Positions 41,910-61,967 of a stretch of DNA of 64,000 nucleotides are shown here, piece by piece. A program made the position numbers and the translations under genes. The notes beneath the pieces were generated by a model that saw only the letters and a program-made list of their open reading frames with translations, was not told the origin of the DNA and made no database searches. The DNA is from a virus: positions 1-64,000 of the IMG/VR virus record IMGVR_UViG_3300009418_004817; one strand, written 5' to 3'. Each line of letters opens with the position of its first letter. Within the stretch, counting starts at the first letter, position 1.

Positions 41910-42556
41910 CTTCTATTTTCTCCTTTAAAGTTATTGAAATCCTTTAAATAATCCACATCAAATATCTTATTTTCCAGTGAATAAAAGAGTGTATCTTCGC
42001 AGTATAAATTCTTATCTAACTCGTCCACCGCTTTGGATTTTACAATCACCACATAGTGACACACTTCGAAACACGCTGGGTAGTCCTGTCTTCTGTAAAG
42101 TTTATGATTGACCACTTTTGCGCCTCTATAATTATCCAGCGTATAATAACTCATATAAGGGTGGTTTCCAATACTTTTTCCACAGAGCAAAGAATTGGCT
42201 TGATTTTCCAAATAAAAATCATATATTCTTTCAACTTCTTCAAACTTTCTCTGTGGATACGTTAGATACAAAGTAATCAGATCTTGATCGGATGTAATAT
42301 TGAAGTTTTGTATCACATCCTTTATGACAAACTTCATACTGGTGTCATCTCTTGATAGTTCAGGACCCCTTTGCAGGGTCTTAAAACCGTACTCTTCTGC
42401 ACGATGTATCAATTCCTCATCATCAGTAGTAACAATTGTACGATCACATAAGTATTTAGGTATTTGCCGAGCAGTATAATCAAATAGGTATCTATTCTTA
42501 TTAGGAAACCCCTTTGAATTTTTGCGAGCAGGTATTGTTATCCAAAAATTTTTCAC
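41906..42556 (-). CDS. neuA: NeuA-like CMP-nonulosonate cytidylyltransferase
   Basis: The 216-residue protein begins MKNFWITIPARKNSKGFPNK, the CTP-binding IPAR-x-x-S-K-x-x-x-x-K-N signature of CMP-sialic acid (and CMP-KDO) synthetases. It also has I-V-T-T-D-D-E-E-L, R-G-P-E-L-S-R-D-D-T-S (close to the family R-P-x-x-L-x-x-D) and L-Y-L-T-Y-P-Q-R (family L-Q-P-T-S-P-x-R). It would activate the NeuB product as a CMP sugar for a transferase. GTG start with GTGA overlap to the radical SAM gene. The product is slightly shorter than classical NeuA (about 225). KDO activation is the main alternative, but NeuB next door favours a nonulosonic acid. Confidence 0.85.
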   Translation of the reverse strand: MKNFWITIPARKNSKGFPNKNRYLFDYTARQIPKYLCDRTIVTTDDEELIHRAEEYGFKTLQRGPELSRDDTSMKFVIKDVIQNFNITSDQDLITLYLTYPQRKFEEVERIYDFYLENQANSLLCGKSIGNHPYMSYYTLDNYRGAKVVNHKLYRRQDYPACFEVCHYVVIVKSKAVDELDKNLYCEDTLFYSLENKIFDVDYLKDFNNFKGENRR

Positions 42557-59670: not shown

Positions 59671-59800
59671 TTCTTGTCCTCCTTCTTATATACCTAAGTT
59701 TTAATTCTTTGTATATCATACAAATTGAAACTATCAAAAAACATATGTACATCACAACAATAGACGATATCAAAGCCATAAATAACCAATGTTTTTCCAT
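59657..59800 (-). CDS. 47-residue single-pass membrane protein
   Basis: This short ORF reads MEKHWLFMALISSIVVMYIC, continues with a hydrophobic run to about residue 30, then basic R-Y-I-R-R-R-T-R-N-E-K-K. It overlaps the stop of the FtsZ-like gene (TAATG) and ends 14 nt inside the 78-residue gene. One membrane helix followed by a strongly basic tail gives an N-out/C-in topology. It has no good ribosome site of its own and would depend on translational coupling with the FtsZ-like gene. It could be a membrane tether for that GTPase, by analogy with small FtsZ anchors; this is inference. Confidence 0.5.
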   Translation of the reverse strand: MEKHWLFMALISSIVVMYICFLIVSICMIYKELKLRYIRRRTRNEKK

Positions 59801-60951
59801 TATCTGATTTTTAAAAACCTTTTAAGCTCTTCTAGACGTTTTTCGGGTGCAGCGAGGCCGCCAATCATCGTATAAGCCGTCAATTTCTCTCTTTTGGAGT
59901 CTTCGTAGATGCCACGATGAATAATTGCTCCATCTGTCAAAGATCCGAGCGTGTCAAAGCCATATTCGATGTAATCCATCAATCCAGCGACCTCTTCATA
60001 CATCGTAGTACCTCCAACAACGATTGAAGCAGCTGCTGTGGCTGTTTTTAGGTCAAATCCTCCGGCTAAAAGCGTTTTTTCGAGGTTTGCCTTCAATGCG
60101 TTGGCAATAGAGGTCTCGTGATCGACCTCCCTGACTGTTGTAACACCCATGATCATGCACCCCTGGCTCTTCATGACCGAGTCATAGTCCATAGGGTCAA
60201 AGGACGTATAGTCGCTATTTTGGGCACATAGGACGTTAAATACGTGAAACAGGCCGGCAACTGTGTTGTTTAGTGTCGGCCAGAACTTCTTGACGGTCAA
60301 AGATGGGTATAATTTCTTGATCTTGTCATTATCAACCATAATAAGCGGTGCAAAATCACCATTTGCAGCCCGAACACACAGTTCTGATACCTTATTGAAG
60401 GCATTTTTGGCCACAATAGACGATGCACACTCACCATTTGTCGGCAAAGACACAATAACACCCACTCTTTCGCTGGCATCTTCTCTTCCGACGTATGTAA
60501 AGTAGCGTTTTGCAATATCAACTAGTGCATTTACGCTTCCGCCGCCTGTACCGCCGGCCGCGCCGACACAAACAAGGATTCGATCGATGTTTTCACCGAA
60601 AATTTCCCTTAATTTGTTAAAAATCTCTTGACTTCTGCCTTCAAAAGCCTCTCTGCCTCTTTCCTGATTCTTGCCGGCGCCTTGTCCACTAAAATAGTCC
60701 ACAAAAAACTTGTGTTCTTCTGGAAGTTCCAATAAATTAAGGTCAGATTGCGCTGTGTTGAACGCAATAGTCTTCTTATAGCCGAGATCATAGAAAGCTT
60801 TGGCAATTCTACCTCCTCCTTGGCCAGATCCAATGACAGCATAAGTCAAAGCACCTCCGGATTCGTCTTCGACACCGTTTTTTTGAGTTTGTTCCTCTAA
60901 ATTTGGGTCAAGATCTTCAATATCTAATGTTGGAATGTCTAATTCAATCAT
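59800..60951 (-). CDS. FtsZ/tubulin-like GTPase
   Basis: The 383-residue form starts at 60951; the longer open frame would run into the tmRNA. Features are V-I-G-S-G-Q-G-G-G-R-I near residues 39-49 (T1 loop), A-F-N-T-A-Q-S-D-L (T2/T3 region), V-G-A-A-G-G-T-G-G-G-S near 129-139 (the tubulin/FtsZ GTP signature, usual GGGTGxG), and F-D-P-M-D-Y-D-S-V-M near 251-260, the T7-type catalytic loop that hydrolyses GTP of the next subunit. Together they indicate an assembling GTPase, similar to phage PhuZ/TubZ or archaeal FtsZ-like proteins. GAGGAG lies 12 nt before the ATG, inside a 14 bp palindrome. The role could be positioning phage replication or interfering with host division. Confidence 0.85.
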   Translation of the reverse strand: MIELDIPTLDIEDLDPNLEEQTQKNGVEDESGGALTYAVIGSGQGGGRIAKAFYDLGYKKTIAFNTAQSDLNLLELPEEHKFFVDYFSGQGAGKNQERGREAFEGRSQEIFNKLREIFGENIDRILVCVGAAGGTGGGSVNALVDIAKRYFTYVGREDASERVGVIVSLPTNGECASSIVAKNAFNKVSELCVRAANGDFAPLIMVDNDKIKKLYPSLTVKKFWPTLNNTVAGLFHVFNVLCAQNSDYTSFDPMDYDSVMKSQGCMIMGVTTVREVDHETSIANALKANLEKTLLAGGFDLKTATAAASIVVGGTTMYEEVAGLMDYIEYGFDTLGSLTDGAIIHRGIYEDSKREKLTAYTMIGGLAAPEKRLEELKRFLKIR

Positions 60952-60963
60952 AATTATAATTTT

Positions 60964-60977
60964 CTCCTCTAGAGGAG
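60964..60977. promoter_or_regulatory. 14 bp palindrome joining tmRNA 3' end and FtsZ-like ribosome site
   Basis: The perfect palindrome CTCCTCTAGAGGAG spans the last bases of the tmRNA acceptor stem and the GAGGAG ribosome site of the FtsZ-like gene. On the minus strand the tmRNA end (CCTCCT) could pair with GAGGAG. When the tmRNA folds, its 3' bases pair instead with its own 5' end (GGGGGTG), leaving the ribosome site free. This gives a possible switch in which tmRNA folding or processing allows translation of the GTPase. The pairing is directly visible; the regulatory reading is inference. Confidence 0.45.
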
Positions 60978-61318
60978 GTGGCGAGAATCGAACTCGCGTC
61001 CTAAATGCTTCAGTTAATTTTTCGTTCACAAGGTTAGTTAGATTTTAGCCTCTAACAAGCGTTTTATGAAAAAAAGAGACCCAACCACTCTTTCAAAACC
61101 ACCTACTACCTGTAGGGTAACTTCATTTTTGATCTTGACTTTGGTTTACAGGGTGTCAAGCTCAAAAAAACCCTGTTCTTACACTCTAGGCTGCTAGTGC
61201 GTAAGAATTGTCGTAAATACCATCATTGGCAATTATCATTTGAGCGTTTTTAATGTGCCGCGCTCCCCACATCCTTGCAAAATTAACTTCTTTCACTCAG
61301 TCGAACCCTTTCACCCCC
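60973..61318 (-). ncRNA. ssrA: tmRNA (transfer-messenger RNA), phage-encoded
   Basis: The RNA is one-piece, about 346 nt. The 5' end GGGGGTGAAAGGGTTCGACT has the conserved GGxTTCGAC of the tmRNA D-loop region. The 3' end has the T arm GCGAGTTCGATTCTCGC and the acceptor strand CACCTCC, which pairs with GGGGGTG over 7 bp (one G-U). CCA is not encoded. The tag frame begins near GCC at 61230-61228 and reads ANDGIYDNSYALAA before TAG at 61188-61186, ending in the usual YALAA that ClpXP recognises. The RNA frees stalled ribosomes and tags nascent proteins for proteolysis. The strong promoter and leader RNA upstream are on the same strand. A partner smpB is not in the window. Confidence 0.93.
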
Positions 61319-61562
61319 TAATAATATAAATAGTTTGTTAAAATAGAATCCGAAAACAACTTCATGAGGGGTCGATCTCTCGCTCCACGACCATACTAGC
61401 CTACCTTCACGCCTCGTTGTAGACATTGAGGAGAAACTCATTGTATAATGCGGTCGGTTCCGCGCATCCTCATGAAGCCGTTGGTCAAAGCTACGAAAAA
61501 CCGTTGTTTAACAACATTTGACCGCCTCCTTTATTAAAAAAATGATCCATGATATACATAAT
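61319..61562 (-). ncRNA. Structured leader RNA upstream of the tmRNA
   Basis: The transcript from the promoter at 61569-61596 would begin near 61562 and pass this 240 nt region before the tmRNA. Helices seen on the minus strand: 61517-61523 with 61483-61489 (7 bp), a long-range helix 61468-61477 with 61360-61369 (10 bp, CTTCATGAGG/CCTCATGAAG), a hairpin 61448-61467 flush with one end of that helix, and a hairpin 61370-61392 flush with its other end. This is a compact multi-helix junction with no spacer bases at the helix ends, unlikely by chance. No match to a known class comes to mind (not RNase P, 6S or hammerhead). It may be a cis-regulator or an independent sRNA freed by tmRNA processing. 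Confidence 0.65.
61491..61517 (-). CDS. Leader ORF of 8 codons
   Basis: Just after the promoter an AAAGGAGG site stands 7 nt before ATG. The frame reads M-L-L-N-N-G-F-S and stops at TAG. The ORF lies in the loop of the 7 bp helix 61517-61523/61483-61489, so a ribosome translating it would open this helix. Strong ribosome site, short peptide and overlap with RNA structure are the hallmarks of attenuation-type leader peptides. It could report ribosome availability to the downstream RNA, a logical input for a tmRNA locus. Regulation is inference. Confidence 0.45.
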   Translation of the reverse strand: MLLNNGFS

Positions 61563-61568
61563 ACTAGT

Positions 61569-61596
61569 ATTATAACACATTTGACCAAAAAGTCAA
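61569..61596 (-). promoter_or_regulatory. Strong sigma70-type promoter for leader RNA, tmRNA and downstream genes
   Basis: On the minus strand TTGACT (61596-61591) and TATAAT (61574-61569) are separated by 16 bp, with TGT right before the -10 (extended -10). This is the best housekeeping-type promoter I found in the window. The -35 overlaps the stop codon (TGA at 61595-61593) of the upstream gene, and TTGAC with GTCAA forms a 5 bp inverted repeat that could also be an operator or a weak hairpin. It would let host RNA polymerase express the tmRNA locus early, without the phage late sigma factor. Confidence 0.8.
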
Positions 61597-61967
61597 GGAA
61601 TAATTTCACTTTCATCAAAATAATAATTTATCTTATATCGTCTGCTAAATTTATTCATATCTTGTATACTAATACCCAGAAATCGAGCGGCTTCGCCCTT
61701 TGTTTTGGTTGCCGTGGAAGTAAATTTTAATATTGCATCTCTTACAAGATCTGGAATTGCCAGCCATATCGGCAATCCATAAAGATAACCGCCCGCAGCC
61801 CGATTTGCAAGTTCTAGTTTAAGCCCAATAACTTCTTCAAGGGTAAGTTTATTCAACATTACCTCAAATTCTTCTGTTGATTTGCCTTTTTTGCGAAGTT
61901 GTGTTATTATGCTGTGATTTTTGGTAGATTTTTTTCTTCTACCGGTGAGTTTTCGTTCCCAGGCCAT
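61593..61967 (-). CDS. Small basic protein with HTH-like C-terminal segment
   Basis: The 124-residue protein has a very basic N-terminus (W-E-R-K-L-T-G-R-R-K-K-S) and a helical middle (L-T-L-E-E-V-I-G-L-K-L-E-L-A-N-R). The C-terminal part, T-K-T-K-G-E-A-A-R-F-L-G-I-S-I-Q-D-M-N-K-F-S-R-R-Y, has the form of a Fis-type helix-turn-helix, with A-A-x-x-L-G-I and a basic second helix. A DNA-binding regulator is likely; it is encoded directly before the tmRNA promoter and its stop codon lies in the -35 box, so it might regulate that promoter. This last step is inference. Confidence 0.65.
   Translation of the reverse strand: MAWERKLTGRRKKSTKNHSIITQLRKKGKSTEEFEVMLNKLTLEEVIGLKLELANRAAGGYLYGLPIWLAIPDLVRDAILKFTSTATKTKGEAARFLGISIQDMNKFSRRYKINYYFDESEIIP

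Follow-up and report, generated by a model that had tools for sequence, protein, structure and literature searches.

The RNA locus and its neighbours

The window analysed here is a stretch of 64,000 nucleotides, positions 1 to 64,000 of a 75.8-kb virus record (IMGVR_UViG_3300009418_004817). Inspection of its minus strand reveals, in order of transcription, a gene for a 124-aa protein, a sigma-70-like promoter that overlaps the end of this gene, an RNA region, and a complete tmRNA whose tag is ANDGIYDNSYALAA (Table 1). The promoter position would place the start of transcription at about 61562. An earlier note, made from the letters alone, had described a promoter, a tmRNA, helices and hairpins at this site, and each of these features is present in the sequence.

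Table 1 Features of the locus and copies of a second motif, by position (window unless a locus is named)
Feature	Position	Strand	Detail
Fis-like helix-turn-helix protein	61593..61967	minus	124 aa; upstream; usual genomic anchor of the RNA
Sigma-70 promoter	61596..61569	minus	TTGACT-N16-TATAAT, TG before -10; 11/12 consensus; position conserved in relatives
Leader hairpin	61483..61523	minus	GGTCAAA/TTTGACC, 7 bp, 61483-61489/61517-61523; weakly supported; outside conserved fold
Structured RNA domain, P1 to P1'	61359..61478	minus	homologues and covariation
P1 5' strand	61468..61478	minus	pairs with 61359-61369; six inner pairs all doubly changed; pairs in held-out members
Joint hairpin between P1 and P2	61448..61467	minus	lineage-specific; absent in relatives
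Hairpin P2	61411..61432	minus	TCCTC/GAGGC, 4-bp core CCTC/GAGG; 12-nt loop 61416-61427; covaries
Pseudoknot (PK) 5' strand	61419..61424	minus	GUCUAC in P2 loop; pairs with 61399-61404
PK 3' strand	61399..61404	minus	GUAGGC, then conserved UAG (CUAG motif 61396-61399)
Hairpin P3	61370..61392	minus	GGUCG-UGGAGCGAGAGAU-CGACC; 5/5 pairs doubly changed
P1 3' strand	61359..61369	minus	flush after P3; covariation and held-out members
tmRNA, downstream	60972-61318 (ARAGORN); 60970-61318 (Rfam RF00023, 109 bits)	minus
Second motif copies	L051:4325-4470, L057:4322-4460, L005:4600-4740, L008:4590-4740, L010:820-950

The 124-aa protein belongs to a Fis-like family that is conserved in many phage contigs directly 5' of tRNA or tmRNA genes. 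Some family members match Fis-type HTH models, and the AlphaFold model of the protein resembles E. coli Fis, with weak E-values and a probability of up to 0.96. A role as a packaging RNA tied to a small terminase was also weighed and rejected: the neighbour is Fis-like, and packaging is without support.

Several further features surround the RNA. A palindrome, TTGACTTTTTGGTCAA (61581-61596, minus), spans the promoter -35 box and spacer and is a possible operator. In the leader before P1 (61491-61532, minus), an 8-codon ORF (MLLNNGFS, stop) is preceded by a Shine-Dalgarno-like AAAGGAGG; very short leader ORFs also occur at loci L008, L010, L080 and L113, and none was seen in the short-leader type-2 members described below. 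On the far side of the tmRNA, the protein encoded at 59800-60951 (minus) is distantly similar to a Bacillus phage G protein (24% identity), and its GSGQGGGRIA and GGTGGGSV motifs, read as motifs only, suggest a tubulin/FtsZ-type GTPase.

Homologues share a single architecture

With the 124-aa protein as the starting point, a homologue search identified 73 virus loci, in 36 of which a recognisable homologue of the RNA lies directly after the 124-aa gene. Pattern searches at the DNA level and another protein search supplied further members, which brought the total to about 50 IMG/VR contigs by our own count, with one convincing copy of the RNA per record. All members follow one architecture of about 105-175 nt, and two sequence subtypes can be told apart. 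In both subtypes the P1 5' strand is followed by a joint of variable length, by P2 with its 12-nt loop, by an optional variable hairpin, and then by UGAA(G/A), the second pseudoknot strand, CUAG and P3; the P1 3' strand follows P3 directly or within 1-2 nt. The conserved fold therefore comprises four helices (P1, P2, PK and P3), where P1 clamps the ends of the domain and P3 abuts P1.

Type 1, which includes the window, has the P2 loop AUG-YCUCU-AAC, followed by UGAAG-AGAGR-CUAGUAU; its P3 loop is built around GGAGCGAGA. The pseudoknot of the window itself is the variant GUCUAC/GUAGGC. Type 2 has the loop AAUG-RCUC-U, followed by GAAA-Y-GAGY-CUAG, and its P3 loop carries GYGAA. Four pattern matches (L121, L122, L125 and L126) were rejected because the surrounding conserved elements are missing, and a candidate second copy in the window at 42202-42277 (weak model match, E 0.013-0.027) was rejected as lying inside predicted coding sequence.

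Searches beyond this collection returned no relatives. BLASTN with the window region and two member RNAs, together with TBLASTN with the upstream gene, identified no phage record, and none is similar at the DNA level. A strict DNA pattern for each subtype gave 0 matches in 84,980 GTDB bacterial and archaeal species genomes, a search that divergent copies could escape. Rfam 15 holds no family that reaches its gathering score, or anything above chance, for the window or for members of either subtype, and searches of the open-access literature yielded no description of the RNA.

The pairing of strands inside the fold can also be drawn differently in some members. In L012:4365-4500, in L031:4361-4494 and in the window domain, the 5' strands of P1 and P2 are complementary to each other, such that two exclusive folds can be drawn; inspection of L002 and L003 did not reveal this alternative pairing.

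Another conserved intergenic motif, ACGAATNGG..CCCYA..GGGTGG....GGTGGTTGGAC, lies 3' of the Fis-like gene at other loci (Table 1) and may likewise be a structured RNA; its L051 copy has no Rfam match.

Compensatory changes support four helices

Covariation was analysed with two alignments. In the first (A3), a MAFFT alignment of nine type-1 sequences, 97.8% of cells pair across P2, PK and P3. The second (A5) is a gapless core of 26 sequences that includes P1. It contains 546 cells, of which 97.8% pair, and changes on both sides are seen in 17 of the 21 pairs. These percentages lean towards structure because pairing itself guided the placement of P1 and P3 by eye, the joints and the P3 loop were left out, and a bulged base of L039 was dropped. 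A covariation of 0.750 was obtained for A5, as against 0.195 for shuffled alignments (0/500 reach the observed value) and 0.08-0.17 with the partners slid. Structureless alignments simulated on the inferred tree (n=200) gave a mean of 0.12 and a maximum of 0.22, and for 12 of the 21 pairs the score was matched in at most one of these 200 simulations. The top 14 covarying column pairs of the whole A5 alignment are all proposed pairs (14/14), and one pseudoknot pair is seen as G-C, A-U, C-G, U-A and U-G across members. Four of the 21 pairs never covary and are uninformative in either direction. Compensatory change above a phylogenetic null, the mark of a conserved structured noncoding RNA, is thus present here.

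Eight members that were identified later, through the protein or through patterns for the P2 loop and PK, and cut into segments by hand, served as a held-out set. Pairing in these members was nearly complete (P1 46/48, P2 39/40, PK 40/40, P3 38/40); P1 and P3 carry the weight of this comparison, since P2 and PK were in part dictated by the search patterns. When strands were exchanged between different members, only 3.1 of 6 pairs formed in P1 and 2.1 of 5 in P3. The held-out analysis also counted 16 G-U pairs versus 1 A-C pair, an excess indicating that the RNA is encoded on the same strand as the tmRNA. A protein-coding reading of the region was rejected because the joints range in length between 5 and 80 nt, which is incompatible with a conserved reading frame.

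Viewed against these results, the earlier note was right about two of the four helices that it named and missed two others. Its 10-bp long-range helix is P1, of 10-11 bp in the window, and one of its two flanking hairpins is P3, with the flush contact between the two correctly seen; both helices covary across dozens of relatives. The second flanking hairpin, in contrast, falls in the joint between P1 and P2, which varies in length and is not conserved. The further 7-bp helix nearer the promoter is not conserved either, and short-leader type-2 members have no room for it, while L008 and L010 carry a comparable leader hairpin with a compensatory difference. The note did not contain P2 or the pseudoknot, where conservation of the fold is highest. 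Its broader claim of a real three-dimensional and undescribed RNA stands: homologues were gathered and tested for covariation, P1, P2, PK and P3 are supported, the covariation passes the shuffle, slide and phylogenetic controls, and the suggested Rfam comparison found nothing above chance.

Folding energy, which the note had also proposed as a check, did not set the 244-nt region apart (z = -1.29; 19/200 shuffles fold as well). The domain closed by P1 gave z = -2.55, and 4/200 shuffles fold as well. Folding of single sequences often returns the pseudoknot strands as a plain helix that replaces P2, as expected of a pseudoknot that the folding program cannot represent.

Promoters and downstream genes

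When scored against shuffled sequence, a sigma-70 promoter upstream of the RNA was significant (p < 0.05) at 17 of 25 loci, many with the form TTGACA-N17-TAnnnT; this scoring omitted six members including the window, whose promoter was scored separately. In eight type-2 loci the distance between the end of the -10 box and P1 is 10-20 nt, and P1 would therefore be the RNA's own 5' end. A promoter of its own at the 5' end of the RNA is expected of a free-standing sRNA gene, and these loci have one.

At the other end, many copies have a U-rich tract 3' of P1, and L037 and L041 extend P1 by GAAGUAC/GUACUUC before a U-run. A scan of the window found no terminator-like site between the RNA and tmRNA, and several other copies are without a clear terminator separating the two. 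The flanks beyond P1 are not conserved.

Most copies sit immediately 5' of a tmRNA or tRNA, and the gene that follows differs by locus: tmRNA directly, tRNA-Gly, or an unrelated protein gene. The genes around the RNA at L105 and L113 are unrelated, and the 124-aa gene, tRNA and tmRNA are all missing from these loci; the L113 record has its tmRNA elsewhere. The two RNAs also separate in both directions. The 167-kb record G007 (L073) has the RNA, and tmRNA was not detected in it; the 184-kb record G002 (L009) has tmRNA and lacks the RNA; these records may be fragments. At L032 the promoter is followed directly by tmRNA, whereas in its relative L019 the RNA separates these two elements.

Discussion

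Beyond the observed fold, strand, conservation, promoter and pattern of presence and absence, we read this RNA as the product of a free-standing gene in a clade of large uncultured phages, structured and noncoding, trans-acting and often co-transcribed with tRNA or tmRNA, and assign this reading a probability of roughly 0.6. It draws on the variable downstream genes, the two-way separability from tmRNA, the presence of a promoter that belongs to the RNA, and the pairing of the RNA's ends by P1. Two observations count against it, namely the position of most copies before tmRNA or tRNA, as for a leader, and the lack of a clear terminator before tmRNA in the window and several other copies. The earlier note had offered a regulatory leader, a separate sRNA or a riboswitch; the separate sRNA fits best, and the other two are unsupported as a general role because the downstream gene varies, L105 and L113 stand apart, tmRNA occurs without the RNA in close relatives, and P1 in several copies starts 10-20 nt after the -10 box, as the RNA's own 5' end.

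A cis-acting leader would be a riboswitch or attenuator in which a P1 stabilised by ligand or protein, together with the U-rich tract 3' of it, controls read-through into the downstream gene. The location of most copies between promoter and tmRNA or tRNA is what such a leader would show, as are the U-rich tract itself, conserved loop bases like those of aptamers, and the two exclusive folds allowed by P1/P2 5'-strand pairing in L012, L031 and the window. We nevertheless consider it unlikely, since the genes that follow are unrelated between loci and do not form the single class expected behind a riboswitch, no terminator was found between the window RNA and tmRNA, the close relative L032 has tmRNA behind the same kind of promoter without the RNA, and L002 and L003, when inspected, did not show the alternative pairing.

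A self-cleaving or RNase-guiding element that separates the transcript from the tRNA or tmRNA behind it is very unlikely. Pistol self-cleaving ribozymes combine stems with a pseudoknot in which a hairpin loop pairs with the strand before the next stem, and the compact pseudoknotted junction of this RNA, with its conserved unpaired bases, shares that topology and lies just 5' of mature tRNA and tmRNA ends. In contrast to pistol, the domain is enclosed by a long P1, with no shared conserved bases recognised and no match to this or any other Rfam ribozyme; moreover, the flanks outside P1 are not conserved, the RNA also precedes protein genes and stands alone, and RNase P already makes the 5' ends of tRNA and tmRNA. 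That the region is a chance foldable spacer without a functional RNA, as the unremarkable folding energy of the 244-nt region might suggest, has next to no chance of being correct given covariation far above every control, its confirmation in held-out members, the G-U over A-C asymmetry and joints that exclude a conserved reading frame.

For the free-standing RNA gene that we favour, the following course is probable. A strong host-type (sigma-70) promoter would produce a transcript with the structured RNA first, usually followed by tRNA-Gly and/or tmRNA. The RNA folds compactly, with P1 clamping the ends, P3 abutting P1, and the P2 loop pairing back to the strand before P3, an arrangement predicted to place the conserved UGAA(G/A), CUAG and P3-loop bases near the junction. 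It would then be released from, or terminated before, the downstream tRNA or tmRNA, and would act in trans, offering its conserved loops for contact with a partner, whether protein, ribosome or another RNA.

Within the known kind of structured phage noncoding RNA, we rate this RNA as a new family, nearest by habit to GOLLD and ROOL. These are structured noncoding RNAs of phages and prophages that contain pseudoknots, often lie near tRNA islands and form nanocages, and GOLLD members can exceed 800 nt (PMC12286853). The likeness is that of a structured, pseudoknotted phage noncoding RNA beside tRNA genes; the RNA described here, at its ~105-175 nt, differs from both in fold and has no Rfam match that would make it a member. 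The manA and wcaG motifs are structured RNAs from marine metagenomes and T4-like cyanophages (PMC2864571); they are cis elements in the 5' UTRs of metabolic genes, whereas the present RNA has neither a consistent downstream gene nor an Rfam match to them. The tmRNA (RF00023) or permuted tmRNA (RF04321) is a neighbour on the same strand and probably shares the transcript. Unlike tmRNA, the RNA has no tRNA-like domain or tag frame, and the Rfam tmRNA matches start after it.

The findings add a well-supported family, absent from Rfam 15, to the few structured phage noncoding RNAs that lie beside tRNA and tmRNA genes. The fold, the consensus and the ~50 members make the RNA directly testable, and L019, with the RNA, and L032, without it, offer a natural comparison. 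A role in the tuning of host translation by the phage is perhaps indicated, a suggestion that comes only from the neighbouring genes. Taken further, and only tentatively, the RNA might represent a new trans-acting class that is made with phage tmRNA and tRNAs and acts on host translation or RNA machinery, where targets may include, for example, the ribosome, SmpB or an RNase. If true, this would constitute a new mechanism of phage control, beyond a new sequence family.
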